Below are positions 2,126 to 58,998 of a stretch of 59,022 nt of DNA, piece after piece. Position numbers and translations under genes: made by a program. A model generated the notes under the pieces. The model did not search any database. It was given only the letters and a program-made list of their open reading frames with translations, and was not told the origin of the DNA. The DNA is from a virus: the IMG/VR virus record IMGVR_UViG_3300049216_000181, positions 1-59,022 of that record; one strand, written 5' to 3'. Positions within the stretch are counted from its first letter, which is position 1; every line of letters starts with the position of its first letter.

Positions 2126-2388
2126 TTCCTGCGCGCCATAAGATGCTCGCGTTCGCGATTGAGAAGCGCGGCTATTAAGCGAGCGGAATTTTCGTCGAAT
2201 CCACACGCTGCAACGCAGTCCCCCATTGAGTCGATGACCAGCCATTGCCGTCCAGCCTCGTCTAAGCATGGGTGGACTGGGCCGCTGCCGTGCTCGGAGT
2301 GGTCGAAGAAAAGTGCCGAACGAGACGCCACATCCAACGAGGCTGAAGCCTCGTTGGGCGGATATTGGGGAGCAATTTCGGAGTTCAT
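2107..2388 (-). CDS. Hypothetical protein, 93 residues, N-terminus encoded by an attC-like site
   Basis: The ATG at 2388 lies inside attC-like site B, and residues about 1-25 are encoded by the palindrome arms. The rest is ordinary coding sequence with a compact motif (WLVIDSMGDCVAACGFDENSA) followed by a basic helix that looks like a small alpha-beta domain. It overlaps the next gene by 19 bases. The function is unknown. Confidence 0.55.
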   Translation of the reverse strand: MNSEIAPQYPPNEASASLDVASRSALFFDHSEHGSGPVHPCLDEAGRQWLVIDSMGDCVAACGFDENSARLIAALLNREREHLMARRKCPSNS

Positions 2389-2427
2389 GTTATTTCGCAG
2401 CCTCGTGGCTGAGCTTATTTGTTCGCC
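2315..2427 (-). repeat. attC-like site B (complete arms)
   Basis: Read on the minus strand, the site has R'' GGCGAAC (2421-2427), a 10-base spacer, L'' AGCCACGAGGCTG, a loop, L' CAGCCTCGTTGG and R' GTTCGGC (2315-2321). L'' and L' are complementary except for one extra T in L' (CGTTGG against CCACG), the extrahelical-base signature of integron attC sites. The stop of the DUF4326 gene (2415) falls in the R''-L'' spacer, as is usual for cassette genes. The loop also holds the start codon of the next gene. Confidence 0.65.
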
Positions 2428-2765
2428 AAACGAAGAAGCACGTCGGCGTGGCATGGCTGGTCGAGCGGGCACCAGCAGGCCAGATTCTTGCCGCGCAGGG
2501 CCTCGACCGGAAGCGTGGGAGCGTGCAGGATCGCGAACCAATGCACGGCATCCTCGCGATCCATCTTGGTGCCTTTCAGCCCCGGAATTTCGTCGCCGAT
2601 TTTATACGGGTTTCCCCAGCGCGTGGGGCGCGCGACGACGATGCAGTTGGGCGGCTTCCGCCATCCTCGCCGCCGTGAGAGCTGAACCCGGATTGGCGAA
2701 CCAGGCGAGACAGCCAACCCGGACGTGCGTCCGTCCGTATTCGCTCCGATTTGGAGTAGGTTCAT
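2415..2765 (-). CDS. DUF4326 domain protein, 116 residues
   Basis: The C-terminal two thirds show the DUF4326 pattern: VARPTRWGNPYKIG, then REDAVHWF, then LRGKNLACWCPLDQPCHADVLL. The family is common in phages; its biochemical role is not established to my knowledge. The chosen ATG (2765) lies one base after the exonuclease stop and inside half-site C, so the first roughly 25 residues are encoded by the attC-like sequence. No start codon exists closer to the domain apart from a TTG in the same repeat. The gene ends inside attC-like site B. Confidence 0.75.
   Translation of the reverse strand: MNLLQIGANTDGRTSGLAVSPGSPIRVQLSRRRGWRKPPNCIVVARPTRWGNPYKIGDEIPGLKGTKMDREDAVHWFAILHAPTLPVEALRGKNLACWCPLDQPCHADVLLRLANK
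2696..2765 (-). repeat. attC-like half-site C
   Basis: On the plus strand GCGAACC (2696-2702), 8 bases and CAGCCAACCCGGACG (2711-2725) match the R'-L' arm of the complete sites. The outer R'' box is present as the complement of GGTTCAT (2759-2765), but the inner L'' arm has lost most complementarity. It separates the exonuclease gene from the DUF4326 gene. Confidence 0.5.
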
Positions 2766-2766
2766 A

Positions 2767-3276
2767 TCAGGTGGCGGCCAAAATTGACATGAGGTGGAAC
2801 GCCTGATCGGTGGCGTCATCGAGCGCGTTGTGGTGGGTGCCGGCCCGTGGCATCGGCACCTCGGGGTGCAGACTTTTCATCGTCCGGTAACAGCGGTCGT
2901 TCCAAAACTTCCACGGCCGCGGCAGCCGCAGGGCCTCGTAAGCGTCGGCCAACAGCACGTTGTCAAACGCCGCGCCGTTCCCCCAAACCTCGGCATCGGC
3001 GTCGCCGAGCCAACGCGCGAAATTGCTGAGCACCACCGCGAGCGGCTCGCCGGTCTTCGTAATTTCGAGCCGCGCGGCATCCGACTGCTTCAGCCACCAC
3101 ATGACTGTGGCAACATCCACTTTCAGACCGGCGTCGATGCAGCTTTGTGGATCGACACGTGCGTAAAACGTGCTGGTGATTTTGCCGTCGGCGAACTTCA
3201 CCGCCCCGACGGCGACGATGACCGAGCCCGGCTTGTTGCCGAGCGTTTCGAGGTCGAGCATTACTTGAGTTTTCAT
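2767..3276 (-). CDS. 3'-5' exonuclease, DnaQ-like fold (DUF5051-type)
   Basis: From the ATG at 3276 the protein (169 residues) begins MKTQVMLDLETLGNKPGS, which contains the DEDD-family Exo I motif (D-L-E-T). Exo II-like residues follow in DVATVMWWLKQ and the region WGNGAAFDNVLL, and the Exo III region HHNALDDATDQ near the C-terminus carries the last acidic residues. It should degrade DNA or RNA from 3' ends with two metal ions in the cytosol, as in T4 DexA-like and Rv2179c-like families. It sits in the early operon after an HTH gene. Confidence 0.85.
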   Translation of the reverse strand: MKTQVMLDLETLGNKPGSVIVAVGAVKFADGKITSTFYARVDPQSCIDAGLKVDVATVMWWLKQSDAARLEITKTGEPLAVVLSNFARWLGDADAEVWGNGAAFDNVLLADAYEALRLPRPWKFWNDRCYRTMKSLHPEVPMPRAGTHHNALDDATDQAFHLMSILAAT

Positions 3277-3815: not shown

Positions 3816-4193
3816 TTATTTGCCTCCGTTCGTGCCGCTCGTCGGCACATCTCGGTCGTTCACCCCATCGGCCTCTTTGCCGTTGTGGTCGGCCAGGGAT
3901 GCAAGCTCGCTGTCGTCGCCGCCGTAGGAGACGTGTGCCCAATCGAGGCTCATGCTCGCTGCCCACGCTTTCCACGCGGCCCGTGCGGCATCTCCGTCGT
4001 TTGAGTCCTTCCATCCCTCCTTTGATCCGTCGGGCGCGATGAGGAAGCTTATGTAGCCATTCATCGGGCTATGCACGAGGTCGCTGCATGGCAGCCCTAG
4101 TTCGCGGGCCTTAGCCAGTGCGGAGTTGATCTTGTTCTTGTTTGGGTAGTTCCATCCGGTGACTACGATTGCTTCATGTCGTATGTAGCCCAT
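3816..4193 (-). CDS. Hypothetical phage protein, 125 residues
   Basis: It begins MGYIRHEAIVVTGWN, a start seen in small proteins of unrelated phages that I recognise by type but cannot name. An alpha-beta N-terminal domain (about residues 1-80, with NGYISFLIAPDGS and WKDS) is followed by a polar, probably disordered tail rich in D, N and G. It is the first gene after attC-like site D. The function is unknown. Confidence 0.65.
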   Translation of the reverse strand: MGYIRHEAIVVTGWNYPNKNKINSALAKARELGLPCSDLVHSPMNGYISFLIAPDGSKEGWKDSNDGDAARAAWKAWAASMSLDWAHVSYGGDDSELASLADHNGKEADGVNDRDVPTSGTNGGK

Positions 4194-4361: not shown

Positions 4362-4476
4362 GGCTAACCAGGCGGTAGAGAGGAACGCTCGGGAATGGGC
4401 CAGTTATTCGGCGGGGGCTTCAACGCTCGGGCTCGCGCCTGATTCGGCCCGAGCGTCCCTCACCTTGTTGTTCAGA
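4362..4476 (-). repeat. attC-like site E (complete)
   Basis: On the minus strand: R'' TCTGAAC (4470-4476), spacer, L'' GAGGGACGCTCGGG, a loop with a further copy of the arm near 4422-4432, L' CCCGAGCGTTCCTC (4378-4393 complement), and R' GTTAGCC (4362-4368). L' again carries one extra T relative to L''. The stop codon of the 94-residue gene lies inside R'', a common arrangement in integron cassettes. Confidence 0.65.
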
Positions 4477-6549: not shown

Positions 6550-6554
6550 ACTTA

Positions 6555-6569: not shown

Positions 6570-6592
6570 GCAGTTGCGAGCTTTTTTGCGCT

Positions 6593-8545: not shown

Positions 8546-8738
8546 CAGGGAGCGAGGTTTATTTTAGCGCCACTGCGCTGTGCGCTGGTTATCAGCGGCT
8601 TGCAAAATTCTTTTTTGCGAGTCCGTCGGCCTGCATGAGTCCGCATTACCGTAATACTGGGAGTCCGCACACATACGCCATTCGGAGTAATAGGCCGAAA
8701 AGAGTATGTGAAATGCAGGCCTGCTCCATAGGGAAACT

Positions 8739-10184: not shown

Positions 10185-10843
10185 CCACCGCAATCTATTA
10201 CAGGGTAAGTTCCGCGCAGCAGACCGTCGCCAACCAGAAGCCGGATGTGGAGCGGTATGTTCAGGCGCAGGGCTTGGGGCCGGTGACGGTTTACGAGGAG
10301 CAGGCGAGTGCAGCCAGGCGCAGGCCCGAATTCGAGCGCATGTTGGCCGCGTGTCGGGACGGCCATCACAGCACGGTCGTCGTCTGGGCGCTGGACCGCT
10401 TTGGCCGCAGCATGGCCGGGAATGTCCGGGACGTGCTGGAACTGGACCGGCTGGGGGTTCGGGTGGTGTCCGTTCGTGAGCCGTGGCTGAACACCGCCGG
10501 CCCGGTTCGGGAGCTGCTCGTGGCGATCTTCTCCTGGGTGGCGCAGCAGGAAAGGCAGAGGCTCATTGAGCGGACCAAGGCAGGGCTGGCGACGGCGAAA
10601 GCCAAGGGCAAGCAGATCGGGACGATCAGCCCGGTGGCTCCACGGGAGCCGGAGGCCAGGGCAGCGGTGGTGCGGGCGTGGCGCGCCGAGACGGGCGGGA
10701 AGTCCGTCCGCCGGCTGGCTGAGATGCTGGGCGGGGTTTCGACGGCGACGGCGGCCCGCCTTGCCCGCGAGTGGCCGGCGGCCGATCCTCAGCAGGCCAT
10801 CACAGCGGCCAGTGGCGCGCCGGACTCACCTGAGTTTGCATGA
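10181..10843 (+). CDS. Serine recombinase, resolvase/invertase type, 220 residues
   Basis: With the GTG start at 10181 the protein begins MTTAIYYRVSSAQQ; the serine at position 10 in YRVSS is the catalytic residue. VVVWALDRFGRSM carries the conserved D-R-x-G-R motif, and the following segment (LLVAIFSWVAQQERQRLIER, then GLATAKAKGKQIG) is the E-helix region of this family, with a C-terminal HTH of Hin type. The size fits resolvases, not large phage integrases, so it may resolve multimers or invert a segment at the repeats just upstream. Confidence 0.9.
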   Translation: MTTAIYYRVSSAQQTVANQKPDVERYVQAQGLGPVTVYEEQASAARRRPEFERMLAACRDGHHSTVVVWALDRFGRSMAGNVRDVLELDRLGVRVVSVREPWLNTAGPVRELLVAIFSWVAQQERQRLIERTKAGLATAKAKGKQIGTISPVAPREPEARAAVVRAWRAETGGKSVRRLAEMLGGVSTATAARLAREWPAADPQQAITAASGAPDSPEFA

Positions 10844-24089: not shown

Positions 24090-24245
24090 ATGAAAAAACT
24101 AAGACATGAATGGGCGTTTGAGTTTAATTTTAGCCGGAATCGTTACCTGCTTCCGTATTTCGCATACGGAGTTCTCGGCCATGATGGCGATTGGGCCATC
24201 GGGTTCATGGGGATATACGCAAAGAGAACCGTATATTGGGGTTAA
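24090..24245 (+). CDS. Small hypothetical protein, 51 residues
   Basis: ATG at 24090 lies two bases after the SSB-like stop. The product begins MKKLRHEWAFEFNFSRNRYL, then AYGVLGHDGDWAIGFMG and ends in WG; aromatic-rich and not clearly transmembrane. The next base block is operator-like site 7. A plus-strand frame at 24106 covering the same DNA is a shadow. Confidence 0.55.
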   Translation: MKKLRHEWAFEFNFSRNRYLLPYFAYGVLGHDGDWAIGFMGIYAKRTVYWG

Positions 24246-24247
24246 AT

Positions 24248-24262
24248 TCCCGCTTGACTGGA
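24248..24262. promoter_or_regulatory. Operator-like palindrome 7 (TCCCGC-TTG-ACTGGA)
   Basis: Two bases after the stop of the 51-residue gene and upstream of a terminator, tRNA and ncRNA. Identical in 15 bases to site 5. Confidence 0.6.
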
Positions 24263-24324
24263 CAAGTCTCGCGCCCCAGTTTGGCGTCCTCGTTCTTTGC
24301 TAATAGTGTGTGCATAGTCATAGC

Positions 24325-27700: not shown

Positions 27701-30449
27701 GAACGCGGCCATTGACCTCGCTATTCTCGGCGTGAAAGCCGGACGCCCCATCGAACAGGTCATCCGCATTGCGATTGCCCGCTACAAGGCGGCGCACAAG
27801 GCGGCGACAGAAGCCGAACTCGCGCGCCTTGATACGGCCATCCGGAGTGCCGTTTCCCAGCCGCCAGAGCCCACGCCTAAAGGCAAGGAAAAGTCGCGCC
27901 TTCCCGAATCCCTGCGCGCCGCTGGCGCCCCCGTTGAATCCATCGAATACGAGGTTCGCAACCAGGAGGCGCGCAAGCAGGAGGCATCCGAATTCGTCCG
28001 TAAGAACGGCCCCGAAGCCGCCGAGGCCGCGTTGACCGATGCCGCCATCCCGGGCGACACCCGCGTTGCCATTGGCGGCCAGCTCATCAACGACCGGATG
28101 ATGGCGCTGGCGGAGGCCAAGCCGGAGAAGGTCCGCGCCATCACCCGCGACATCCAGCGCATCACCGCCAAGATGCAGCCGGAACTGGCGACCAAGGCCG
28201 GTCAGCAGATTTCGATGTTCAGCGCCATCTATCAGGATGTCGCAACAGCCGCTGGCATGGAATACATCCGGGAGGCTGGTAAGCGCCGCTCGGATGCGCT
28301 TGGCGGCGAACGCGGCGAACAAGCTGCTCAGGAAGCCGCCGACATCTTCAACCGGAAACTGACGCCCGAGGAGCGCAACAAGGAGATCGAGCGCCTGAAG
28401 GAACGCTACACCGAAAAGCCGGTGCGAAAGATGCTGAATGAGTTCAAGCGTATGCAGGTCGCGCAAAAGCTGAACGAACTCGGCGTTCTCACTCGCGAGG
28501 ACATGATTGAGGTCGCCGGCAATGCGCTTGGAATCCCAGGCATCGACCCGAAGAAGCTGAAGCACATCGCACAGTTGGCGGACAAGGTGAAGGGCGCGAA
28601 GAACGAGGCCGAGCGAGCAAAGGCGGAAATCGAGCTGGCTGATGCCCTATCGGTTTACAAGGGCCTTAACCCGCTCGATCTTGAGGCTTCCATCCTGACG
28701 CTCAACATCCTTTCCGGCCCTTCCACCCAGCTTGCTAACTTGGGCGGCAACACCCTCCAGTCGCTCTCCGAACTTGTCTCGACTGCGGCGACGAATCCCA
28801 GTCAGACTCCGGCGTTGGTTCAGGGTCTTATCTACGGCATGGGGCTTGGGGCCACCGAAGCCAAGTCCATCCTTCAGACCGGCCGCGGTAGTCGAGACTT
28901 TCAGGACAAGACCAATCTCGCCGGCTCGTCCCTTCAGACCGTGGACTATGCCCGCGACTTTCCGAAGGTGGGTAAAGCTGCCGGCGCCGTGCTCACCGCC
29001 CGCGCCCGACTGGTCGAGAAGGTCAGCCGCGTGATGAAGGCGACCGACGCCATATTCTACTACCCGGCCCGAGAAGCCTACGCCAGAATGGTCGTCTCCA
29101 AGTTACTGGAGGGCAAGGTTGCCCCGGCGGACATGAAGCGCGCCGTGGATGAGGTGCTTCACATCACTCCCGTCCAGTTCAAGCAGGCCGAGGCTGCTGC
29201 CAAGGCCGAGGGCTGGGAGGGCATCGACCTTGCACGCCGGACGGCAGACATCATCGAGGAACGTCGTGCCCAGCGACCGGAAGGAGCGGAAGCCGTCAGG
29301 CAGTCGGAGCAATTCGCAGCCGAGGCGACTTACAACCAAGAGCCGGTCGGACTCGCCGGAGTCGTCTATCGCAATGCGGCCAATCTGGTTAATCAGGCCC
29401 GGGTCGGCGGCGCTCCGATTCTGAAACCGTGGCTCATGTTCCTGCGCACGCCAGCCAACGTCTTCAACGCGACCACGAATTACACCCCGATGGGTGCCGT
29501 TCGGGCCAAGCTGGGCATGCCCGACAGCAAGCCGGGCGAGTGGAAGAATTTCACCCGTGAGGAGCGCAAGCGTCTCTATCTCCAGAGTCTCATCGGCACG
29601 TCTCTGATGTCCGCCCTTATTTGGCGTGTGCTTGAGAAGGAGGATCTGGATGTCACCGCTCGCGGCCCCGAGAATCCGGCTCAGCGTCGCCAGCTCATGC
29701 AGGGCGGATGGATGCCTTACTCCATCAAGGTCGGCGACAGGTATTATTCCTATAAGGACAGCCCGCTTCTGGTTCCCCTTTCGGTAGTCGGAAACGTCGC
29801 CGATGCGGTGAAGTATCAGAAGGCCAAGGCCGATCAGTTGTTGGAGAATCGCGTGACGGATGCTCTTTTCCAAGCCCCGCGCGTGATGTTCCAGACCTCC
29901 ATGCTTTCCGGCCTCGCGAACCTCATGTCCTCGCTTTCCGGCACCGGGCCGACGACCGATATTGGCCGCGAACTTGGCGGCCTCCCGGCCAATCTCGCAA
30001 TTCCCTACAATCGCCTGCTCCAGCAGGTTGACCAAGTATTTGAGCCCCGCCAGTTCCAGACCGGAGCCGTCCAGTCCAATGTGCCTTTCCTGCGCCGTGA
30101 GGGCCAGCTAAAGACCGATGTCCAAGGCCGTCCGGAAACCTACAGTCCGTTCTCCCGCTTCGGCTCGCCGGAGTCCAAAGACCCCGTGGATGTCCTGATC
30201 CGCGACAAGCATGTGTTCATTCCGGACGTGGATCGCTCCGCCAAGATTGGCGACAAGCCCATGACCGACGAGCAGATCGCGGAATACCGGCGCATCTCAG
30301 GGGAGAGAATTCGCTCGCGGCTTCTCCGTATGGTGCCTATTCTCAAAGCCAAGACCAAGGAAGACGTGCAGGACGAAATTAGCCGCGTGTCTCGCGAGGA
30401 GCGTGACCGGGCCAAGAAAATCATCGCGCGCCAACCTATTGAACGCTGA
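24771..30449 (+). CDS. Large virion/ejection-type polyvalent protein, 1892 residues
   Basis: The N-terminal 400 residues are polar with heptad-like helices (KQRAVNPFLYSGAVKSLAKV, then EARRE-rich coiled coils). Residues about 500-660 contain glycine/alanine-rich hydrophobic stretches (IGTLLTAALGPAGLAVASIG and MLVGAITGGVVTGAGRGARA) able to enter membranes. A long P/E/Q/A linker follows (about 660-850), then a helical C-terminal domain with LNILSGPSTQLANLGGNTLQ and FLRTPANVFNATTNYTPMGA, typical of LPD38-like parts of large phage polyvalent proteins. It is probably packed in the head and ejected with DNA. Confidence 0.7.
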   Translation: MPTSPTRPPPSMAPRAGSTLPPDDEDEEDNVLPGGVMPPPVRPISPVARARPVLDAGRLSDDPQERAKQSMARAEADFEAKQRAVNPFLYSGAVKSLAKVGGRRYMDRAVQAGEAAYADQVQAERARAVAERQQQVEAQKAQNAQREAQMRGTRQQFYTDPYGNIQPVLDPTGRPLYRPTTWSASKHPKDGRPVMEMLDQYGQRQFKDYPLVTTDDPNDMQMHWNVDGEFVPAMSIDDAIKRGGKIAKQARVAREQKLKAQIRESTAPARREVEAVDLEIATKRAEVADLNRRSEELARAGDAVRAAEMANSALALEDELNNNAGELGARKRLADARYGYEKIRAERDGHLVNRQEIADRLIAEGIDPASDPGYQANEKALAQVEKTLGYAKAALGRMGQPVVAQPATPVAAEPESRIKSVGKALARGATAERIYAAGEGLARLMEGIGRTGWIPGFGAAPRGMEGAARWYGNATRDVRKAIREALPLDEEFSRSLTGQVSQGIGQAIGTLLTAALGPAGLAVASIGQIYDEAYQDAKQAGASDSEANAAAVKYLPAAGLDFLSDRLVVGRIMKPLVGKMTVGAVLKDILVSAVAEGATEGAQQAYLNQVASKLAGYDPNRVFDKEVYDSMLVGAITGGVVTGAGRGARAALSGGEPEGGNVQTPEQPPVEGGPPATQTPEQAQAEAEFQRALAEEPVAAAEAAPTPEAAPAPVQEAQPAPTEQPQPAEQPAAEELPAGRPPVVEQSPEATATDRRQYDMLQRRMSELLKRGGADAVGSPEYQAAWQASEDIKNRHGGMPPGEVAGEPRPVSQPSTEETQNASIQQSATQVGEQPVGTQGPRIEGGSGVEQSVEGIEPPRAQASAVPGEPSVSSQEVARPTAELRRNNADLGQKPVAQLSRAEKYAELEAAGVKQYKGKPVSELNPAELSAAVGQARRGGESQPLLTERAEAALRKAKIDTRGKVFDVTGATAAAAWNAAIDLAILGVKAGRPIEQVIRIAIARYKAAHKAATEAELARLDTAIRSAVSQPPEPTPKGKEKSRLPESLRAAGAPVESIEYEVRNQEARKQEASEFVRKNGPEAAEAALTDAAIPGDTRVAIGGQLINDRMMALAEAKPEKVRAITRDIQRITAKMQPELATKAGQQISMFSAIYQDVATAAGMEYIREAGKRRSDALGGERGEQAAQEAADIFNRKLTPEERNKEIERLKERYTEKPVRKMLNEFKRMQVAQKLNELGVLTREDMIEVAGNALGIPGIDPKKLKHIAQLADKVKGAKNEAERAKAEIELADALSVYKGLNPLDLEASILTLNILSGPSTQLANLGGNTLQSLSELVSTAATNPSQTPALVQGLIYGMGLGATEAKSILQTGRGSRDFQDKTNLAGSSLQTVDYARDFPKVGKAAGAVLTARARLVEKVSRVMKATDAIFYYPAREAYARMVVSKLLEGKVAPADMKRAVDEVLHITPVQFKQAEAAAKAEGWEGIDLARRTADIIEERRAQRPEGAEAVRQSEQFAAEATYNQEPVGLAGVVYRNAANLVNQARVGGAPILKPWLMFLRTPANVFNATTNYTPMGAVRAKLGMPDSKPGEWKNFTREERKRLYLQSLIGTSLMSALIWRVLEKEDLDVTARGPENPAQRRQLMQGGWMPYSIKVGDRYYSYKDSPLLVPLSVVGNVADAVKYQKAKADQLLENRVTDALFQAPRVMFQTSMLSGLANLMSSLSGTGPTTDIGRELGGLPANLAIPYNRLLQQVDQVFEPRQFQTGAVQSNVPFLRREGQLKTDVQGRPETYSPFSRFGSPESKDPVDVLIRDKHVFIPDVDRSAKIGDKPMTDEQIAEYRRISGERIRSRLLRMVPILKAKTKEDVQDEISRVSREERDRAKKIIARQPIER

Positions 30450-30454
30450 ACACC

Positions 30455-32806
30455 ATGCCAGACCCCCAATCCCAAGTCGGTAAATTCCTTTCGGACGTGC
30501 AGGCCGTGATCCCGGCACTCCCGGCCGGCGGCGACGAGCCGATGGTGCCGTTCCAGACCGCCCTGAAGCTGAATCGCGACCAAGAGAAGCGGATGATTGA
30601 GCACGCTTTCAAGCGCATGGGGGAAATCTCGCGCGAACTCGGCCGCGACCAGACCGTTCAGCCGAACTGGTGGATGAACAACGGACAGTCGCAGAATCAG
30701 GCGCTGGCGAGCCAGGGCCTCGTGCCGACCGAAACCTTCCTTGGCAAGCGCGCCCGCTTCGATGCCACGTTTGCGAACGATGTCGCGTGGCGGCCTTACA
30801 CCTTCGGCCCGGACAACATCTTCTTCTCGTCCAACATCCCGGTGCCAGTCGTCCGCCGCGTGTGCCGGCAGATGATTGCGCGGGCCAAGAATGCGTTCTT
30901 CGGGACTGACCCGTGGTTCTCCATTGACCCGACCCCGGTGCCAGAGTTCGACCCGGAGGAACATGCCGAGCGAGCCGACCGGATAGAGAAGTTCTGCCGC
31001 TTCAAGCTGGGCGAGTCCCAGTCGGACGCGAAGGCTTCTGCCGGCCGCGCTATCGCCCGTGCGCTGATTCTGGGTGAGGCCGTGGTGAAGACCTCGTATG
31101 TTGTCCGCGACCAGATTTTCAACGTCGAGGCGACCGTCCTTCACGGCGTCGATGGTCAGCCCGTGCGCGCCTCGGACGGCAATTTCATCACCGAGGAAGA
31201 CCAGTGGGTTGACGCGCAGGATGGAATGGGGACGATGGTGTTGGAGCGCGACCCGAGCGTGGTTCGTCCGCTGGCGCCGATCTACCAGAAGATCCCGCTT
31301 GATCGCCGGCAGGTGCTGTTTGAGGGCACGAAGTCGGATGTCATCTACTACAAGGACTTCCTGTGTCCGCTGACTGCGGCGGATGAGCAGCAGGCGGATT
31401 GCGTGATCCATCTTTATGACAAGCCGGTGATGGAGTTCGTCGATCTCGTGGTCAAGCGAGGCATGGTGGATGACACAGCCGAGGATCGCATCAACGCCGC
31501 ACAAAAGATGGTGGCGCTCGTGAAGAAGATGGCGGACAACAGCCAGCTCCCGAAGTCTGCGGCCAACATGCAGTCAAGGCCGAACGAATACTTCTCCGGC
31601 GGTCCATCCGTTGAGACTGGTGGCCCGATTTCAGAGTTCGCCGAGTTCTACATGTGGTATGACGCCAACGGCGATGGAATCGCGGAGAACATCATGCTCG
31701 TCTGCGATAAGGTGACGCAGGCGCCGATTTTCTACGACCACGTTGCGAATGTCACCACGGATGGCCTTCGCCCGTTGAAGGTCGTGCGCGTGAATCCGGT
31801 GGAGGGGCGGTGGTATGGCGTGGGCATCATGGAACTCTTCGAGAGTTACCAGAACATCATCGACTTGTTGGTGAATCGCTGGAATTTCTCCCAGAGCCGT
31901 GCCGGCCGCGTGGACTTCTGGCGTCCGACCGACACGCAGGAGGGCGACCGCGATCCGAACCTGAAGATGAACTATGGTGGAACATACACAGCGAAACCTG
32001 GTATCGACCCCACCGAAATCCTCACCTCGGTTTACTTGCGAGATGAAAAGTTCGCCGACCTTGAGCGGATGTTCACCCTTTTCTTCCAGCTTCTCGCAAA
32101 CGAGAGCGGCGTCAGCAATGCGAACGACGCCGCGGCTGCGGGGCTGAATACCTCGGACCTCGCCACTGGCATCAACAACATCCAGCAGAGCGGCCTTGAG
32201 CTGACGGAACCCATGCTACAGGACTTGAAGCCGGGCATTCAAGACGTGCTCACACGCGAGGTGGAGATCACCTTGGCCAACATGAATCCCGTCGAGGTGT
32301 TTGAATATCTCAACGGCGACACCAAGGGCATCGACACTATCACCCCCGATGATGTCCGCGGCCTGAAATTTAAGGTCAAGATCGAGTTGGACACCAAGAA
32401 CGATCAGCAGAAGATTCAACTCTCCACTGCTGCGGCTGCACTTGTGGAAAGATTTTATCTCTTGGCCCCTTCCGTGCAGCAAAAAGTAGTCGGGTTCTAT
32501 CGTGACCAAGTTCGCCGACTGTGCCCGCGTTGCGATGTCAAGTCGGTCATTTCCCCGGTTGAGCCCACTGGCCCTCAGCCCGAGGCGCCTCGCAAGACGG
32601 TGACGGTTAATATCAAAGGCGAGCAGCTCACGCCCGAGCAGCGCGACGAACTCCTTCAGGAGCAATACGACGTTCAGGCCGCTGGCGCACAGCCGCTCAA
32701 GACACGGGATCAAGGCTCGGTTGAGAAGCTAGGAGAGCCTGCGCCTGCGACCGAGTTCAGCGCCCAACTTAGCCAGCGGATTCGGAAGAAGGCGTCGCCG
32801 AGCTAA
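30455..32806 (+). CDS. Portal protein, 783 residues
   Basis: It has the arrangement of podovirus-type portals: a long N-terminal helical part, a core with YTFGPDNIFFSSNIPVPVVR and ALILGEAVVKTSYVV, and a C-terminal LLVNRWNFSQSRAGRVDFWR and LTEPMLQDLKPGIQDV stem/wing region, then a basic tail. The portal is the ring at the packaging vertex that binds the terminase. It lies right after the large virion gene and before a small ORF and a glycosyltransferase, close to terL upstream. Confidence 0.8.
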   Translation: MPDPQSQVGKFLSDVQAVIPALPAGGDEPMVPFQTALKLNRDQEKRMIEHAFKRMGEISRELGRDQTVQPNWWMNNGQSQNQALASQGLVPTETFLGKRARFDATFANDVAWRPYTFGPDNIFFSSNIPVPVVRRVCRQMIARAKNAFFGTDPWFSIDPTPVPEFDPEEHAERADRIEKFCRFKLGESQSDAKASAGRAIARALILGEAVVKTSYVVRDQIFNVEATVLHGVDGQPVRASDGNFITEEDQWVDAQDGMGTMVLERDPSVVRPLAPIYQKIPLDRRQVLFEGTKSDVIYYKDFLCPLTAADEQQADCVIHLYDKPVMEFVDLVVKRGMVDDTAEDRINAAQKMVALVKKMADNSQLPKSAANMQSRPNEYFSGGPSVETGGPISEFAEFYMWYDANGDGIAENIMLVCDKVTQAPIFYDHVANVTTDGLRPLKVVRVNPVEGRWYGVGIMELFESYQNIIDLLVNRWNFSQSRAGRVDFWRPTDTQEGDRDPNLKMNYGGTYTAKPGIDPTEILTSVYLRDEKFADLERMFTLFFQLLANESGVSNANDAAAAGLNTSDLATGINNIQQSGLELTEPMLQDLKPGIQDVLTREVEITLANMNPVEVFEYLNGDTKGIDTITPDDVRGLKFKVKIELDTKNDQQKIQLSTAAAALVERFYLLAPSVQQKVVGFYRDQVRRLCPRCDVKSVISPVEPTGPQPEAPRKTVTVNIKGEQLTPEQRDELLQEQYDVQAAGAQPLKTRDQGSVEKLGEPAPATEFSAQLSQRIRKKASPS

Positions 32807-32808
32807 AT

Positions 32809-32823
32809 TCCCGCTTGACTGTA
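32809..32823. promoter_or_regulatory. Operator-like palindrome 8 (TCCCGC-TTG-ACTGTA)
   Basis: Three bases after the portal stop and 29 bases before the next small gene. Same 15-base family; the right half-site is ACTGTA, as in site 9. Confidence 0.6.
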
Positions 32824-32851
32824 TATCTCGCAGGCCGCAACCTGCGGTCAC

Positions 32852-50307: not shown

Positions 50308-50694
50308 TTATGAGCTGCAAGTCGTGTTATCCGCCTTGTTCTCTTCCGGCTGGCGCTCAGTCGCACGGGCCAGCTCCCGGCGCAGCTCTTCGGCGCACTT
50401 GTCGTAGATGTCGGCTTGGATTTTGTAGGAGTTCGAGAGCGTATATTGCCCCTCAGCGAATGCAGTGTTTCGCAGGCCGTTGAGATACATCGCACGCCCA
50501 TACCAGTTCGTGAGAAGACTGTCGGCGCTCGACACCGGAAGAGAACCAGGCGCTACAGCAGCAACGACCTTGGCTGGGCCTGCGAACGCGGACATGGCTT
50601 CTTCGCTCGTGGCTTCGCAGTCACACATTGGGCGCGTCTGCACGCAGTCTGTCGGGTCGGACATTTGTCCTTGGCATCGTGGGCAGATTCTCAT
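50308..50694 (-). CDS. Zinc-ribbon-start hypothetical protein, 128 residues
   Basis: ATG at 50694 gives MRICPRCQGQMSDPTDCVQT, a C-x2-C zinc ribbon start, and further cysteines (CDC) near residue 25. The C-terminal half is a helical segment (QADIYDKCAEELRRELARAT). It begins inside attC-like half-site H's downstream side. Unknown function. Confidence 0.6.
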   Translation of the reverse strand: MRICPRCQGQMSDPTDCVQTRPMCDCEATSEEAMSAFAGPAKVVAAVAPGSLPVSSADSLLTNWYGRAMYLNGLRNTAFAEGQYTLSNSYKIQADIYDKCAEELRRELARATERQPEENKADNTTCSS

Positions 50695-51023
50695 GGGCGT
50701 TTTACGTTTCGGTCGTGGCTGATCTCCACGTTGGGCGAATGATTCCACGGCACGAGGAGGTTGCCCACGCTGTCGCACGGCAGCGATGGGTCTGGCCGGT
50801 TTGCGTATGGTGCTACCCACTCACCGCACCTTGGGCAGTCTTCGCCGCTTGGGCTATGGCGGTCGCGCGACGGCCGCTCCCACTTGTTCGCGCATTCGTG
50901 GCACTCGAAGAAGCGCCAACCGCGGCGAACGTCCTGAACGCCCAAAAAAGGGCCAGAGCCAACGCTCGCCGTCTGTCCGTCTTCGTGCGCGTTAGCCACG
51001 CGCGGGGCATTTTGGTTTGCCAT
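50691..51023 (-). CDS. Zinc-ribbon hypothetical protein, 110 residues
   Basis: The N-terminus (MANQNAPRVANAHEDGQTAS) is encoded partly by attC-like site G. The core has FFECHECANKWERPS and DCPRCGEWVAPY, two C-x2-C pairs that form one zinc site. Similar small zinc-ribbon proteins occur in phage early regions, with nucleic-acid-binding role likely. The end (SHDRNVKRP) is coded by half-site H. Confidence 0.65.
   Translation of the reverse strand: MANQNAPRVANAHEDGQTASVGSGPFLGVQDVRRGWRFFECHECANKWERPSRDRHSPSGEDCPRCGEWVAPYANRPDPSLPCDSVGNLLVPWNHSPNVEISHDRNVKRP
50705..50736 (-). repeat. attC-like half-site H (R''-L'' arm)
   Basis: On the minus strand GCCCAAC (50730-50736), then a spacer and AGCCACGACCGAAACG. 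R'' fits the canonical RYYYAAC box exactly. The opposite arm is not clearly present (only AGCAACGACC near 50557). It lies where one gene ends and the next begins (50691-50694). Confidence 0.5.
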
Positions 51024-51070
51024 AGATTTAGGTGCGCTCTGGCGAGCGCGGCTCATCCCTGCCGATCGGC
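50956..51070 (-). repeat. attC-like site G
   Basis: L'' GAGCCGCGCTCGCC (complement of 51041-51055) and L' GGCGAGCGTTGGCTC (complement of 50956-50970) pair with one extra T in L'; an R''-like box GCCGATC stands exactly 10 bases from L''. R' is decayed. The loop contains the stop (51028) of one gene and the start (51023) of the next. The arm differs from site F in a compensated way (CTCGCC/GGCGAG versus CTCACAG/CTGTGAG). Confidence 0.6.
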
Positions 51071-51432
51071 GGCTGGGTCTGCATGGCATCGAAGATTTCC
51101 TTATCGTGCTCCATCGCCACGCGCACCGCCTCGGCGTAGGTGTTGCCCCAGCAGGTTGTGCCATCGCTGGCGATGCAGAGTCTTTGCACGCCGTGGAGTT
51201 CTTCCGGGCTTTGCATCCCGTCGAGCCAACATAGGTAGTCGAACATGTCGGCCTTTAGCTGCATCGCTTGCCACGCCTTATTCGACGCCGCCGATCCAGC
51301 GGCCACAGCAGCAACGCCCTTGATGTCACATTCTTCGGGCGTTGCGCCTGCGCTCTGGCTCTTGGCGAGCCGTCTATTTTCCTGCTCCCACTCATCGTGG
51401 GAGGCGTCGTCGATTGTGCGTTTTTCGCTCAT
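51028..51432 (-). CDS. Hypothetical protein, 134 residues
   Basis: It begins MSEKRTIDDASHDEWEQENR and has a helical core (AWQAMQLKADMFDYLCWLDG) and WGNTYAEAVRVAMEH. Its last residues (RDEPRSPERT) come from attC-like site G. Shares an alanine-rich segment (VAAVAAGSAASN) with the 128-residue gene (VAAVAPGS). The function is unknown. Confidence 0.6.
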   Translation of the reverse strand: MSEKRTIDDASHDEWEQENRRLAKSQSAGATPEECDIKGVAAVAAGSAASNKAWQAMQLKADMFDYLCWLDGMQSPEELHGVQRLCIASDGTTCWGNTYAEAVRVAMEHDKEIFDAMQTQPPIGRDEPRSPERT

Positions 51433-51764
51433 AGAGATTTTGCGTTCGTCGGGCGTGGCTGATCCGCACCGTTCGGCAAAACGTAGGTCGTGAATCCGTC
51501 CGCGATTTTGGCCACATGAACCACGCCATCAGCTTCGAGGCGTTTCATCGCTTCGGCGGTTTCGGTCGCGCTGCGGCCCTGCGGCGATTGCGGCACCATT
51601 ATCCCGTGCGCTAGCACTCCGCGAGAAATCGCTTTACGCCAGTATTTCACGGCGGCGCGCACGTTGATTTTCGCGGGCTCGTCCGGCAGTCCAAAACGAA
51701 GCACCGAACCACCCGTAGAGCCAACGCTCACAGGCTGTCCGTTTTCGTGTGTTTGGTCAGGCAT
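51429..51764 (-). CDS. Hypothetical protein, 111 residues
   Basis: ATG at 51764 is inside attC-like site F, and the first roughly 20 residues (MPDQTHENGQPVSVGS) are encoded by the repeat. Then a helix-turn-helix-like stretch (QSPQGRSATETAEAMKRLEA) and a strand region (DGVVHVAKIADGFTTYVL). The C-terminus (ADQPRPTNAKSL) is encoded by half-site I. Possibly a small DNA-binding protein. Confidence 0.6.
   Translation of the reverse strand: MPDQTHENGQPVSVGSTGGSVLRFGLPDEPAKINVRAAVKYWRKAISRGVLAHGIMVPQSPQGRSATETAEAMKRLEADGVVHVAKIADGFTTYVLPNGADQPRPTNAKSL
51442..51477 (-). repeat. attC-like half-site I (R''-L'' arm)
   Basis: On the minus strand GCCGAAC (51471-51477), exactly 10 bases, then AGCCACGCCCGACGAACGC. 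The partner arm is not clear. It marks the junction between genes ending at 51429 and starting at 51432. Confidence 0.5.
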
Positions 51765-51817
51765 GATCTTCCCCTTTGGTCTTCTGCTGTGAGCGTGGCT
51801 CACTTTGGACGTTCGGC
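51704..51817 (-). repeat. attC-like site F (complete arms)
   Basis: On the minus strand: R'' GCCGAAC (51811-51817), a 10-base spacer, L'' GAGCCACGCTCACAG, a loop, L' CTGTGAGCGTTGGCTC and R' GGTTCGG (51704-51710). L' and L'' pair over 15 bases with a single extra T in L'. This is the clearest complete site in the right arm. Stop (51757) and start (51764) codons of the two flanking genes lie in the loop. Confidence 0.7.
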
Positions 51818-52080
51818 TGAGGGTAGTGTCTGGCGTGCTCACCGTCGGGTTGCGACTGCTCGCCGTTTTTGTAACCATGGATCGGGCAGTCGTCGCGCAT
51901 GATATAGAGTCCTGAGCAGAGCCAGCCCTTGCCATGCGCGTTGTCGTAGATCGGGCAGTTACATCCGGCTGCGATTGCTGCCGCCGAACCAGGCGCCAGA
52001 CCGAACGCGCCCGCCGGCCCCGCGATTTCGGGAGCGGGTTCAACGCTCAACACTGAGGGTTTTTCGGGCGCGCCGGTCAT
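51757..52080 (-). CDS. Cysteine-containing hypothetical phage protein, 107 residues
   Basis: The core GSAAAIAAGCNCPIYDNAHG, then GWLCSGLYIMRDDCPIHGY is a pattern found in many small phage early proteins, with four cysteines and a histidine likely binding zinc. The N-terminus is proline-rich. The C-terminal end (QPNVQSEPRSQQ) lies in attC-like site F. Unknown function. Confidence 0.65.
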   Translation of the reverse strand: MTGAPEKPSVLSVEPAPEIAGPAGAFGLAPGSAAAIAAGCNCPIYDNAHGKGWLCSGLYIMRDDCPIHGYKNGEQSQPDGEHARHYPQPNVQSEPRSQQKTKGEDHA

Positions 52081-52081
52081 C

Positions 52082-52450
52082 TTATTTGTTCGGGAAAGGA
52101 GGCAGCGGTTGCCAGTGCGTCACGTTAGAGAGCGCCCACATCGTCTCCGCTTCGACCTGCGATTCCCACCAGCCGTCCTCCGGACATCGGCATTCGTTGC
52201 CGTCTTCGTCCCACCATTCCTCGGGAGGGTCGTCCCAGTTGCTCGCGTCGAGCGTTCCGGCGGGCCACCACTCGGCAATGGTGCGCCAGCGGTTGCCGTT
52301 GTCCCAATGCCCGCAGACGAGCACCTTCTGGCCCTTCTTCGGCATCTGTTCTCCGACGGGCGTCCAACATCCCGAACCAGGCGGTGGAGCGCAATCCGGC
52401 CCCGTGGACGCCGAGACCTTCGGCGGGAGGTTTTCTGTGTTCGTATTCAT
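52082..52450 (-). CDS. DUF551-like domain protein, 122 residues
   Basis: Starting MNTNTENLPPKVSASTG, the protein continues with WTPVGEQMPKKGQKVLVCGH and WRTIAEWWPAGT and ends VTHWQPLPPFP, matching the DUF551 pattern (W-x-P-V...VLV...VTHW-x-PLP). This family is widespread in phages; its molecular job is not known to me. The start is two bases after... it overlaps none of its neighbours, unlike most of the cluster. Confidence 0.7.
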   Translation of the reverse strand: MNTNTENLPPKVSASTGPDCAPPPGSGCWTPVGEQMPKKGQKVLVCGHWDNGNRWRTIAEWWPAGTLDASNWDDPPEEWWDEDGNECRCPEDGWWESQVEAETMWALSNVTHWQPLPPFPNK

Positions 52451-52457
52451 GTTGTGG

Positions 52458-53126
52458 TTACTGCGGTTGATTGGGGGCCGGATTGCTCACCTTCGTGTTC
52501 GGGTCAGGCAGCCCCGCGATTTCACGGAGGATGTTGTCGATGCGTAGTTGCTGCGCCGAGTTCGGGCCGTAACCGTTGTTGTGCAGCATGGCGCGAGCTT
52601 CTGCCGCTAGCCGGTGGTGGCGGTCGAGTATATCGGTGAGCCGCTTGATTTCCGGCTGGCCAGAGAGTTCGTCGGCCACCGCGTTGAACAGTCGCAGGGC
52701 GCTCGGCCGAAGACCCGAACCACGGGCCAGAGAGGAACGCGCGGCGGCGTTCCGCTTCGCTTTTTTGCGGGCGTCAGCCCTGCGAATAAATACGAGGGCC
52801 ACATGCGGGAATGTAGGTAACCAGGACTGCGTCAGGTAGTCTCGAAGAGTCTGACCAACGCCGTCCTCGTTGTGGTCTGACCACGCCCACGAGAAGTCGG
52901 ATTTTTTGGCCCAGCTTGGGGAACAGAAGCGGTCAGTGGCTTCCAGCACCTCGTCCAGCTCAACAAGACGGTAGCCTTCGGGAATGGGGATTGGGCGCCA
53001 AACCCCCGCAACCGACTCGGGCCGAAAGTCGCCTGCCTGATAGCGGTCTGAGGCCGTCAGGCGATAAGCCCACACATCGCCGAAGCGGCGAACGGTGGGG
53101 GCATCTTTGATCATATCGGTATTCAT
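52458..53126 (-). CDS. Hypothetical protein, 222 residues
   Basis: Chosen start ATG 53126 (a GTG at 53138 is possible). It has MNTDMIKDAPTVRRFGDVWA, then WRPIPIPEGYRLVELDEVLE, a basic central linker (ARKKAKRNAAARSSLARGSG) and helical C-terminal part. It is the first gene left of operator-like site 9, so it probably begins the rightmost leftward unit. No family. Confidence 0.6.
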   Translation of the reverse strand: MNTDMIKDAPTVRRFGDVWAYRLTASDRYQAGDFRPESVAGVWRPIPIPEGYRLVELDEVLEATDRFCSPSWAKKSDFSWAWSDHNEDGVGQTLRDYLTQSWLPTFPHVALVFIRRADARKKAKRNAAARSSLARGSGLRPSALRLFNAVADELSGQPEIKRLTDILDRHHRLAAEARAMLHNNGYGPNSAQQLRIDNILREIAGLPDPNTKVSNPAPNQPQ

Positions 53127-53190
53127 AAAATTTGGCACTCGGCAAACAAACCTCTATCACGCCATAATGTGGCTTTTGTCGGGAACATCA

Positions 53191-53222: not shown

Positions 53223-54896
53223 TCAGCCCGAATATCGCACACCCTTCGCAATCAGAACGCCGGCCTGAGACTGCTTCATCTTCGCCGCCAGTTCCTCCGG
53301 CCAGCCGAGGCGCAGCGTCAGTTGCACCATTGACTTCGGCGACGCCAACCCCAGTCGCGCCCGTTCCCGGCAGGTGTTAATCAGCCGCTGGGCTTCTCCG
53401 GAGGTCTTTACCTTCGTCGTGTCGATGCCGAACTCCAGAAGCACATCAAGTTCGGGGCGGGAAGGCGGAGCGGCGTCGGCGGAGTTCTGAGCAGGAGCCT
53501 GCCTGCCGTTGATCGACAGCGAGTAGAGCACCGGATCGATAGTGCGCGGCTGCCGGTTCTTGTGCGGATTGGCCGCGTTCTCCAACGACGCCACCCAGTC
53601 GCGGACTTTTTCTGGCGTGCTAAGGTCGCGCTCGGTTTCACCGCGCTTCTTCTTCGGATGCGGAGCGTCGGTGAACAAGTCAAATCCCTCGCAAATATCT
53701 ATCCGGTCTGAAATGAAGAACGGCGAGAGGACTGTGAGAAACGGCTTGGCGCTGCGGGCTATGGCGCCACGGCGCTGCTCTGCGGTCATGCCCTCAACCA
53801 GCACCCCCTTCAGGACGCGCGTGCCGCGATAGACCGACTGGACGTAGCGGCACTTCGAGATCATGGCGCAGAACGGCGCGATGCAGTCGGTGTCAACGAA
53901 GTCGATGCCGTAAGTAACCAATGCGCAGTTGCAGAACACGGTGCCAGGACCGGCCATGTTGTAGGCGTGCGTTTTCTCGCCCTTGTCCAAGCACTCGCCG
54001 GAAGCGAAGATGGCGCGCATGCCCATGCCGTTCAGCGTCTCGGCCATGAGACGGGCGCACTCGACGGATGGAAGGAAGCAGATGGTCTTCTTGTCGTGGG
54101 CGTACCGGACAATCTGCTGGGCCAATTCGCGGATGATGGGGATGATTGCCGCGGCTTGATCGGCCACGGAGAAGTCGGCGCCCTCCGCCGTCCTCCGGGT
54201 GCGGAACTTCCGGGTGTCAATCGTCACCGGGATGTTCATTTCCTTGATGCCAACCAGCCAGCCCTCCTCGATGGCTTCGAGGTAGGAGTAATTCACGCTG
54301 ACACGGTGATACCACTCGCCCAAGGAGCGGTTGCCGCCGAGGTTGGGGGAGGCGGTGAAGCCGCAGACTGACGACAGCGGCGTGTATTCGCCGTCCGCGG
54401 GGCGCCTCCAGTCCTCGGAGAGTGATGCCTCGCCGTAGTGGCAGTAGTTCAGGATGCGCTGCGCCTGCGGGGAGAGGGACAGGTGGCACTCGTCGCTGAC
54501 TATGAAACCGAAGTGGCGGTCGCTGAAGGAGGTCAGGCGGTTGACACGGCCGAGGGTCTGGACAGAAGCAACTACCACGGCGGCATTCGGACTCGCGGAC
54601 TGCGACGCCATCTCGATGTCGGTCTCCAGTCCGGTCTCGTCCCGCACTCGGCCCGCAGTCTGCTCTACCAAGTGCTCGCGGTTCTCGGTGATGAGCGTGC
54701 GCGTGCCGTTGGATTCCCACTTCTTTTTGGCGAGGTGGGCCATACACGAACTTTTCCCGATCCCGCCCGGCGCGATGAACAGATTGCGCTTGAAGCCCTG
54801 CGCCTCGTCGCGCTCCACGGCATCGCACCAGTCCTGCTGCCGCCCGCGCAGCCTGAACGCTGGCGCGGTGTCGAACTCTACTTCGTAGTCAGGCAT
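53223..54896 (-). CDS. Superfamily 2 DECH-box helicase, 557 residues
   Basis: Walker A is LFIAPGGIGKSSCMAHLA (near residue 45), motif Ia ITENREHLVEQT, Walker B VSDECHLSLSPQ (DECH), motif III GFTASPNL, and later motifs KTICFLPSVECARLMAETL and SVYRGTRVLKG. This resembles phage DEAD/DECH ATPases of the Type III res/UvsW type that remodel forks and recombination intermediates. Start ATG at 54896 shares bases with the preceding stop (TAATG). Confidence 0.85.
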   Translation of the reverse strand: MPDYEVEFDTAPAFRLRGRQQDWCDAVERDEAQGFKRNLFIAPGGIGKSSCMAHLAKKKWESNGTRTLITENREHLVEQTAGRVRDETGLETDIEMASQSASPNAAVVVASVQTLGRVNRLTSFSDRHFGFIVSDECHLSLSPQAQRILNYCHYGEASLSEDWRRPADGEYTPLSSVCGFTASPNLGGNRSLGEWYHRVSVNYSYLEAIEEGWLVGIKEMNIPVTIDTRKFRTRRTAEGADFSVADQAAAIIPIIRELAQQIVRYAHDKKTICFLPSVECARLMAETLNGMGMRAIFASGECLDKGEKTHAYNMAGPGTVFCNCALVTYGIDFVDTDCIAPFCAMISKCRYVQSVYRGTRVLKGVLVEGMTAEQRRGAIARSAKPFLTVLSPFFISDRIDICEGFDLFTDAPHPKKKRGETERDLSTPEKVRDWVASLENAANPHKNRQPRTIDPVLYSLSINGRQAPAQNSADAAPPSRPELDVLLEFGIDTTKVKTSGEAQRLINTCRERARLGLASPKSMVQLTLRLGWPEELAAKMKQSQAGVLIAKGVRYSG

Positions 54897-57729: not shown

Positions 57730-58998
57730 TCAAAACTCCTCCTTCTCCGCCACGGCCTCGACCGTGACGCTGACAGTGCCCTTCTTATTTTTCTTGCCGA
57801 GGAGTTCGAGTGTGAGCACGGCGCCAACGGCCCAGGGCTTGCTTGGCTGCCCATCCGCACCGCCACCGCCGAGGTGATACACCTCGCCGACGAACTCGCC
57901 GGACAGCTTGGCCTTCACGGAGGGAGTCGGCTTGCCGTCCACGGGGATTGAAAGGCCGGTCAGCTCCTCTACCTTGCAATCCACCTTCACGCGCTCGCCG
58001 TCCTGAAGGAAGGCGCGGGGCTGCTTGGCCGGCGCAGCCTCCTCAGTCGCCGGCGCAGCTTGCTCAAAGGTTTCGACAGGGGCAGGAGCGGGGGCAGCCT
58101 CGACGACGACCTCCGTCGGCTTCGCCTGGGGCGACACAGCTTCCACGACGGGCGTCACGTTCTTCGGCTCGGGGGCCGGGGCCTCGACGTTCTCTTTCAC
58201 GGCGGCGGCGCCCTTGGGGGCGCGCTTGGGCGGTGCGGGGCGGGCGACCGCCGGCTCCGGCTGAACCGACGTGTCCTCGCCGTCCACATACTTCACGTCC
58301 GCATCCACGTCCTCTTGGGCACCCTGGTCGTGAACAACGGCCTTCTGCATCTCGACCGAGAGAATACCCCACTTGGCAAGTGCGGCCTTCACGACGGTCT
58401 TTGTGGCCATCGCGTCAAAATCAGTCTTCCACGGTGAGTTCCAGCCCTTCTGGTAAGCACGAGAGAATCGCTTGGCGTGAGCCTCGGCCTGCGCCTTGCT
58501 CCAGTAAACGATTTTCACGAAACCGTTCAAGGTCTCGAAAGCGCAGAAGTATCCGGTGGTCTCGCCCGTCGGATCGAAGTTGCTCCAGTCAAGCACGGGC
58601 TCGCCAACCATGTCGTAGCCCTTGAACACGGAGCCGTTCACCGGGCCGGCGTTCAGGCGTTTGTATTGGCCGGAGCGAAGGGCGAGCTGAATCAGCCCCT
58701 TGTAGCCAATCTGAAATTGAGCGACCTTGCCGCGCTCGCCTTCATTGTAAGCGACGATGTGAGCTTGGCCGAGAGTCGGGTTTACCGGCAGATCAAGAGT
58801 GGCGGCCACCATTGCGGCGGCGATGACGGAGCGCGGTTCGGCGTCCTTAAGGCCCGGGGTCTGAGAGACCGCCGTGATGGCGGCCATGAACTGCGGAGCG
58901 CGGTTGCGAAGGACTTCGGAGAAGCGATCCTTGTAGGCCGGGAGAGCGAGGAGGTCTTTGACGGAGGTGGGTCGGACTGCGGGTTGATTTTCGGACAT
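57730..58998 (-). CDS. recT: RecT-family single-strand annealing protein, 422 residues
   Basis: The N-terminal 210 residues follow the RecT pattern: VLRNRAPQFMAAITAVSQTP, VIAAAMVAATLDLPVNPTLG, and KVAQFQIGYKGLIQLALRSG, then RFSRAYQKGWNSPWKTDFDA and MATKTVVKAAL. The remaining 200 residues are a P/A/E-rich linker plus a beta-rich C-terminal domain (GERVKVDCKVEELTGLSIPV), longer than in typical RecT. It anneals complementary strands made by the neighbouring nuclease. The start is at the right end of the window, 24 bases from the edge. Confidence 0.85.
   Translation of the reverse strand: MSENQPAVRPTSVKDLLALPAYKDRFSEVLRNRAPQFMAAITAVSQTPGLKDAEPRSVIAAAMVAATLDLPVNPTLGQAHIVAYNEGERGKVAQFQIGYKGLIQLALRSGQYKRLNAGPVNGSVFKGYDMVGEPVLDWSNFDPTGETTGYFCAFETLNGFVKIVYWSKAQAEAHAKRFSRAYQKGWNSPWKTDFDAMATKTVVKAALAKWGILSVEMQKAVVHDQGAQEDVDADVKYVDGEDTSVQPEPAVARPAPPKRAPKGAAAVKENVEAPAPEPKNVTPVVEAVSPQAKPTEVVVEAAPAPAPVETFEQAAPATEEAAPAKQPRAFLQDGERVKVDCKVEELTGLSIPVDGKPTPSVKAKLSGEFVGEVYHLGGGGADGQPSKPWAVGAVLTLELLGKKNKKGTVSVTVEAVAEKEEF

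Follow-up and report, generated by a model that had tools for sequence, protein, structure and literature searches.

Probable integron cassette array without its own integrase in a podovirus-like phage record

Small genes and attC-like sites at the two ends of the record

The window, i.e. the whole stretch of viral DNA analysed in this study (59,022 bases; IMG/VR record IMGVR_UViG_3300049216_000181), is a podovirus-like phage record in which portal, major head, terminase, helicase and RecT-like genes are present. Small genes on the minus strand, several of them with stop/start overlaps, follow one another between the end of the late genes (ca. 49.98 kb) and the helicase gene, and the overlapping genes from 52450 to 50308 were read directly from the sequence. 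Six attC-like sites (S1 to S6) were found on the same strand from 52503 to 50540, one per small-gene junction, and the genes behind them start in or beside the loop of their own site. The left arm harbours at least two complete attC-like sites and, besides these, single half sites. The features are listed in Table 1.

Table 1 Sites and genes of the two arms, with the evidence for each
Feature	Positions	Strand	Evidence or remark
Site S1	52371..52503	-	Between genes 52458-53138 and 52082-52450; stem finder; covariance model E 2.7e-4
Site S2	51983..52094	-	PWM scan, stem finder, covariance model E 5.8e-9
Site S3, complete	51703..51817	-	PWM scan, stem finder, covariance model E 8.6e-11; site F of the first-pass annotation
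Site S4, long loop	51290..51477	-	Weak PWM match, score 35.2
Site S5	50940..51070	-	PWM scan; covariance model E 4.1e-6
Site S6, long loop	50540..50736	-	Left half by PWM; right half by eye and homologous cassettes
R''-like box AGAGAAC, closes last cassette	50338..50344	-	Complementary to GTTCTCT of S6; also in G055 and G042 homologues
Gene upstream of S1	52458..53138	-	C-terminus reads into S1
Cassette gene, 122 aa, DUF551	52082..52450	-	Pfam E 2.9e-5, above cut-off
Cassette gene, 107 aa, no function assigned	51757..52080	-	
Cassette gene, 111 aa	51429..51764	-	Weak winged-helix likeness; Pfam GntR E 0.096, below cut-off
Cassette gene, 134 aa, no function assigned	51028..51432	-	
Cassette gene, 110 aa, zinc-ribbon-like	50691..51023	-	Homologous cassette in virus record G059
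Cassette gene, 128 aa	50308..50694	-	Homologues in virus records G055 and G042, R boxes identical
Left-arm site, complete	2315..2427	-	Covariance model E 1.2e-6; stem finder
Left-arm site, covaried L box	4362..4476	-	Stem finder; absent from covariance model matches
Left-arm cassette gene, DUF4326	2415..2819	-	Homologous cassette in G008 array
Left-arm cassette gene	3816..4193	-	Homologues in G006, G012 and G055
Helicase gene	53223..54896	-	
RecT-like annealing protein gene	57730..58998		

The R''-spacer-L''-loop-L'-spacer-R' anatomy is complete in S1, S2, S3, S5 and both left-arm sites, and the spacers between the boxes are long (7-11 bases). S1 is composed of R'' CCCGAAC, L'' GAGCAATCCGGCCCC, L' GGGGCCGGATTGCGCTC and R' GTTCGGG, and S2 has a covaried L box (GACCG/CGGTC) and is adjoined by the TAA stop and the ATG start of its flanking genes. 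The arms are CTCACAG/CTGTGAG in S3 and CTCGCC/GGCGAG in S5. CAGCCACGCCC pairs with GGGCGTTGCTG in S4, and CAGCCACGACC with GGTCGTTGCTG in S6; each pair has one mismatch, located where the bulge would be. An extra base lies on the canonical L'' side, as in the chromosomal integron of Opitutaceae bacterium EW11; S1 and the site at 4476-4362 have two. The AAC/GTT cores are present in S1, S2, S3, S6 (R'' GCCCAAC, R' GTTCTCT) and the two left-arm sites, and they are broken in S4 (R' altered to GATCGGC) and S5 (R'' altered to GCCGATC and R' to TTTGGGC). Since the R boxes of S4 and S5 are altered and the loops of S4 and S6 are long, some window sites may be decaying. The strict attC consensus is RYYYAAC/GTTRRRY, from which GCCGAAC/GTTCGGC deviates; since this deviation is also seen in EW11 arrays adjoining intI, the strict form was not treated as defining. 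Single-strand folding of six window sites gave z values from -3.70 to -0.89, and the hairpins by themselves are thus only moderately stable.

The first-pass annotation had proposed an attC-like site at each junction of four small genes, with stop and start codons in the loops. The sites were confirmed, although S4 is only a weak PWM match and S6 was assigned by eye, the codons were seen in the loops, and the two arm pairs that it had named, now assigned to S3 and S5, are present. Its extent of the cluster has to be corrected, since the array is longer and includes complete sites at S1 and S2. In addition, two sites (its H and I) had been described as R''-L'' halves only; these correspond to S4 and S6, both of which are whole.

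The boxes that delimit the left-arm gene at 3816-4193 are GTTCACC (from 4227) and GGTGAAC (from 3864). Within the DUF4326 gene, 41-42 bases at 2437-2478 are identical to DUF4326 genes of many mycobacteriophages (>=99% identity in 17 of 33 records), which is striking given that the phages are otherwise unrelated. Several other features of the record were recorded in passing. The minus-strand gene 5147-6019 contains a degenerate GGC-rich repeat (5227-5563), and a 62-base repeat including TTATCCAGTATAAC (6527-6587 and 8504-8563; 79% identity) is possibly a regulatory or replication element. The promoter-like TAAATTCCCGCTTGACT is common to 24243-24278 and 32804-32839 and has related copies at about 15.8 and 17.4 kb; a 1881-residue protein (24804-30449, plus strand) gave a weak match to an internal virion protein. 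An Rfam gathering search returned tRNA only.

Detection against chance, covariation and R-box matching

A PWM-plus-pairing scan, for which the PWM was derived from sites retrieved with exact 10-mers, detected 5 sites in the window but none once the window was reversed; the corresponding counts for the 16 scanned phage records together were 14 and 0. A finder that required nothing but AAC, a stem and GTT detected 5 minus-strand sites, as compared to 0.28 on average and never more than 1 in 40 dinucleotide shuffles. Five window sites (E-values in Table 1) were likewise matched by a covariance model whose training set consisted of 42 attC sites from bacterial integrons and no phage site; the two long-looped sites, S4 and S6, were missed by it. 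When applied to 35 pieces of 15 relative phage records, this model gave 40 matches at E <= 0.5: G008 accounted for 15 at 49478-59184 (plus strand) and two near 11.0-11.4 kb (minus strand), G006 for 13, G012 and G007 for 4 each and G019 for 2, with 0 in the other ten. A further 120 matches (E <= 0.01) were obtained in 40 pieces of 22 additional viral records, which had been picked by pattern match.

A pattern derived from S3, TGAGCCACGC-N(45-75)-GCGTTGGCTC, matched 29 stretches of viral contigs, and among the control patterns the hairpin minus the extra T gave 0 matches and a scrambled arm gave 5. In bacterial and archaeal genomes the S3-derived pattern matched 105 stretches, many of which were titled Verrucomicrobia, Opitutaceae, Pedosphaera or Limisphaerales. 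Matches in Mycolicibacter, Citrobacter, Hymenobacter, Salinarchaeum and others lacked the R boxes and were rejected as chance. One of the two hits of the first DNA pattern (L023) has the motif without any attC context in its ORF list.

Pairing was then compared with that of swapped partners in 82 viral sites, picked regardless of pairing. The outer L box paired with its own partner at 4.77 of 5 positions and with swapped partners at 4.27 (z 16.1), the inner L box at 3.56 and 2.70 of 4 (z 14.6), and the hairpin tip at 2.85 and 1.46 of 5 (z 13.3). Pairing at 5/5 was kept in 15 of the 27 sites in which the outer L box had changed. Compensatory change in the L arms and hairpin tips of these putative attC sites is therefore real, and the attC criterion of a structure conserved beyond its sequence is met. 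The compensatory change inferred earlier from two window sites is thus upheld on the larger set, and the case that would have refuted it, identical arms arising by recent copying, does not apply, as the arms are not recent identical copies.

If recombination cuts within one R box, the R boxes should match per cassette and not per site. In viral arrays (n=43), the match over 4 variable positions was 3.26 within the own cassette and 2.58 within the same site, as compared to 2.51 for random partners (sd 0.10, maximum 2.86 in 1000 shuffles). EW11, used as a positive control, gave values of 3.92, 3.08 and 3.19, respectively (n=106). On covariance-model coordinates, the R boxes of the phage family gave 2.91, 2.32 and 2.26 (n=34), and 19 of the 34 pairs favoured the own cassette and 6 the same site (p 0.015). 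The six window pairs, aligned by hand, matched at 40/42 bases within cassettes and at 32/42 within sites; the altered GATCGGC in S4 has its match in the GCCGATC of S5, and that for GTTCTCT in S6 is AGAGAAC at 50344. The hand count is only illustrative, since visual inspection contributed to the choice of the S4 and S6 R boxes and of the end box; the n=43 and n=34 tests are independent of the S6 and end-box choices. True phages are mixed with possibly bacterial records in the viral set used for the R-box, orientation and frame tests. As judged from sequence alone, the match within cassettes rather than within sites is the footprint of a crossover in the R box.

Cassette turnover, gene direction and reading frame

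A portal query against viral contigs yielded 18 relatives, and a helicase query against viral contigs yielded none. The core genes are kept across the relatives. The right-arm genes at 50308-53138 had no homologue in the 11 relatives tabulated, and in the closest relative (G002; portal 69% identical) the late genes reach the helicase, leaving the locus free of cassettes. Cassettes of the window recur in other viruses, with similarity confined to the stretch between the R boxes. The homologue of gene 50691-51023 in G059 (58.6% identity over 70 aa) begins at an attC site, and the attC-encoded N-termini of the two are unlike and in different frames. The body of gene 50308-50694 is common to G055 and G042, where, as in the window, it extends from GTTCTCT to AGAGAAC. 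The left-arm DUF4326 gene has a counterpart in the G008 array (55% over 101 residues), and both are bounded by GTTCGCC/GGCGAAC. When the cassette gene 51429-51764 was the query, the sole result was an unrelated winged-helix stretch. These comparisons demonstrate, at the level of sequence, that cassettes turn over and circulate among viruses, some of them unrelated. Gene order at the locus, whose conservation across all relatives would have spoken against the earlier proposal, is not fixed. A contig of a Sulfuritalea MAG (L077), which may be a binned phage, also contains cassettes starting in the loop, and one of its sites is nearly identical to a G059 site.

The window sites are of the type found in the sedentary chromosomal integrons of Verrucomicrobiota, to which EW11 belongs. 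The integron of EW11 resembles the window array in the R-L-L-R anatomy, the R boxes GCCGAAC/GTTCGGC, the own-cassette R pairing and the L box GAGCC/GGCTC with one extra base. The search for host integrons suggested by the first-pass annotation thus recovered the exact letters of its R' box, GTTCGGC, in chromosomal arrays adjoining a true intI. EW11 sites occur every 0.4-1 kb, with up to 15 per 8-kb stretch, and intI lies directly before the array. The canonical direction follows from this position: the pattern corresponds to the bottom strand of a canonical attC, with the extra base in L''. IntI above the TIGR02249 cut-off was found in 7 of the 12 pattern-matched genomes examined. EW11 differs from the window in that its ORFs are mostly canonical (73/106; pattern direction 18/106), its hairpin tips form closed stems and it possesses intI. 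MCP relatives were found in 4 of 288 genomes of the EW11 phylum, the sole phylum searched. That the phage host is a verrucomicrobium is inferred and no more than a guess.

The window genes run opposite to the attC direction and end in the neighbour's attC, so that one usual but non-defining property of cassettes is not met. Cassette ORFs at host loci were canonical in 110/164 and in the pattern direction in 31/164, whereas those of viral records were canonical in 8/43 and in the pattern direction in 26/43 (26:8 vs 31:110, Fisher p 5e-9, omitting the unassigned cassettes, 9/43 viral and 23/164 host). This reversed orientation, a further correction to the first-pass annotation, places the predicted cut point in the R box upstream of the gene.

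The gene-side R'' box was crossed in the frame [CCG][AAC] at 10 of the 11 sites that were informative in the window and its relatives and at 33/39 in other viral records, as compared to 19/52 in EW11 and 28/51 at other genome loci. The EW11 ORFs concerned are mostly antisense, so these counts serve as a negative control for chance and not for translation. On covariance-model sites the same frame was found at 26/30 (p 2e-9). Informative sites were defined by 60 codons with a lead of 25 in the main test and by 45 codons with a lead of 15 on covariance-model sites. A stop closes one frame where R'' contains TAAC; with such sites excluded, the frame was the same at 8/9 in the window and its relatives and at 18/22 in other viral records. 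No frame is fixed at the other (R') box. At phase-0 sites the stop lay within the attC in 37/43, and an ATG was located -10 to +30 bases from the stop in 29/43. The frame fixed at the predicted cut suggests that translation has shaped a recombination site.

Integrases, competing explanations and meaning of the array

Integrons are gene-trading platforms of bacteria, and attC sites are worked by tyrosine recombinases. The window record, which may be incomplete, has no PF00589 match at E <= 10. With six sites in 2 kb and no such match in the record, the CALIN criteria are met, and the criterion of a complete integron, which includes intI, is not. A gene for a small serine recombinase (10181-10843, plus strand) with homologues in G002, G006, G012 and G019 was considered as the source of the array enzyme and ruled out because its product is of the invertase/resolvase kind, whereas attC needs tyrosine recombinases.

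An intact integron integrase is present in the relative G008 (portal 60% identical), where it follows 15 attC-like sites and starts ca. 250 bases beyond the last of them. This IntI of 318 residues scored 312 bits against TIGR02249 (cut-off 265), and its best solved structure was IntI4 (2a3v, 1.9e-58, full-length match). The cassettes of the G008 array (L177, 40001-60000) include a C5 cytosine methylase, a methyltransferase-like protein and DUF4326. IntI above the cut-off was found in 5 of 40 viral records (G008, G032, G034, G043 and G057), of which G032 was recognised as a phage from its terminase. The integrases of G008 and G032 fell into two separate supported pairs in a 12-row tree. The phage G032 (L230, 20001-40000), which carries seven attC sites and an IntI of another clade, is apparently unrelated.

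Based on these results, we interpret the window array as a phage integron cassette array without its own integrase, with a probability of roughly 0.88; no experiment bears on it. Since the window lacks an integrase, the array would be a CALIN that needs one in trans. The unit between two R boxes would be one gene cassette, and the coding strand would correspond to the folded bottom strand of a canonical attC. A tyrosine recombinase of the IntI type acting in trans would cut this folded strand in the R box upstream of the gene, at GCCGAA^C, the canonical R' on the other strand, and cassettes could thereby be removed, inserted or exchanged singly. Each cassette hairpin would contain its own gene's start codon together with the last part of the gene before it. 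A gene would accordingly start in its own attC, run through the cassette body, cross the next R box in [CCG][AAC], and take its tail and stop from the neighbour's attC. As one gene ends and the next begins in the same attC, a swap would leave the genes translatable and alter only the last residues of the upstream gene. That recombination continues in the window phage, with an integrase supplied by the host or a co-infecting phage, is inferred, as is the role of the cassettes as accessory or counter-defence genes.

The lack of IntI in the record, the altered R boxes of S4 and S5 and the two long loops would also be expected of a fossil array, i.e. cassettes of old host-integron origin that are now inherited as ordinary genes and whose sites are no longer recombined. 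We regard this as unlikely, although it remains the most serious competitor: the altered boxes of S4 and S5 match within the cassette, the closest relative is cassette-free, the genes at 50308-53138 occur in no relative searched, and relatives bear other arrays, one of them with intI. Exchange of units by homologous recombination without an integrase has less in its favour. The phage encodes a RecT-like protein that could act on repeated sites, and 10-20 bases are common to the sites; however, neighbouring arms differ and pair within the site, R boxes pair within the cassette, and the frame is fixed at one R box only, a pattern expected of cleavage within a single R box rather than of annealing at arbitrary points of the repeat.

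It is very improbable that the inverted repeats merely couple the translation of overlapping genes or end transcripts. Stops and starts do lie in the loops, mostly with the phase-0 stop within the site, but this explanation leaves unpredicted the R boxes 7-11 bases beyond the stem, the extra T, the own-cassette R pairing, the turnover and the identical site type in arrays adjoining intI, and the perfect hairpin without the extra T was not matched by any viral contig, as against 29 for the pattern with it. A role in translation coupling may well exist in addition to recombination. Start-associated repeats of cluster K mycobacteriophages have inverted arms at gene starts, as here, and are not known to be flanked by integrase-type R boxes. 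Finally, HE(D/N)GQxxSVGS in two genes and AxGS-like stretches in several could be read as terminal peptide motifs of a single gene family. This is scarcely credible, and the frame data already contradict it: one half site is read in several frames (SVGS in the window, PLAPATGS in G059), the frame of R' is not conserved and there is no relationship between the gene bodies.

Phage attC clusters and phage integron integrases have been described before: according to the part of the article considered here, virulent phages carry attC sites and gene cassettes, IntI1 recombined 5 of 6 tested phage attC sites, and the cassettes of TJE1 and PH101 have the typical same-direction order (Qi et al. 2023, PMC9892861). 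As far as that part of the source extends, the window differs in that its genes run against attC, start within attC and keep a fixed frame across the cut site, and in that its cassettes are common to unrelated viruses; the strings 'Verrucomicrob', 'start codon' and 'IMG' do not occur in the main text of the article (PMC9892861). Neither reversed, frame-fixed phage cassettes nor phage integrons of verrucomicrobial type were found in the literature searched (preprints were outside its scope). With respect to that literature, the combination of anti-attC genes, a start in the own attC, a stop in the neighbour's attC and a fixed frame across the predicted recombination point appears to be new.

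Beyond the cassette array without its own integrase, we consider it somewhat better than an even bet that this virus lineage has made the integron an in-frame swapping device. The attC would serve as a stop/start adaptor with a fixed frame at the cut, each swap would renew the C-terminal tail encoded upstream, some phages would use their own IntI, and unrelated phages would draw on a common cassette pool. One phage family carries arrays at two genome ends and has a relative with an integrase and 15 sites; such arrays would provide phages with a one-step route for changing accessory genes, including methyltransferases such as those in the G008 array.
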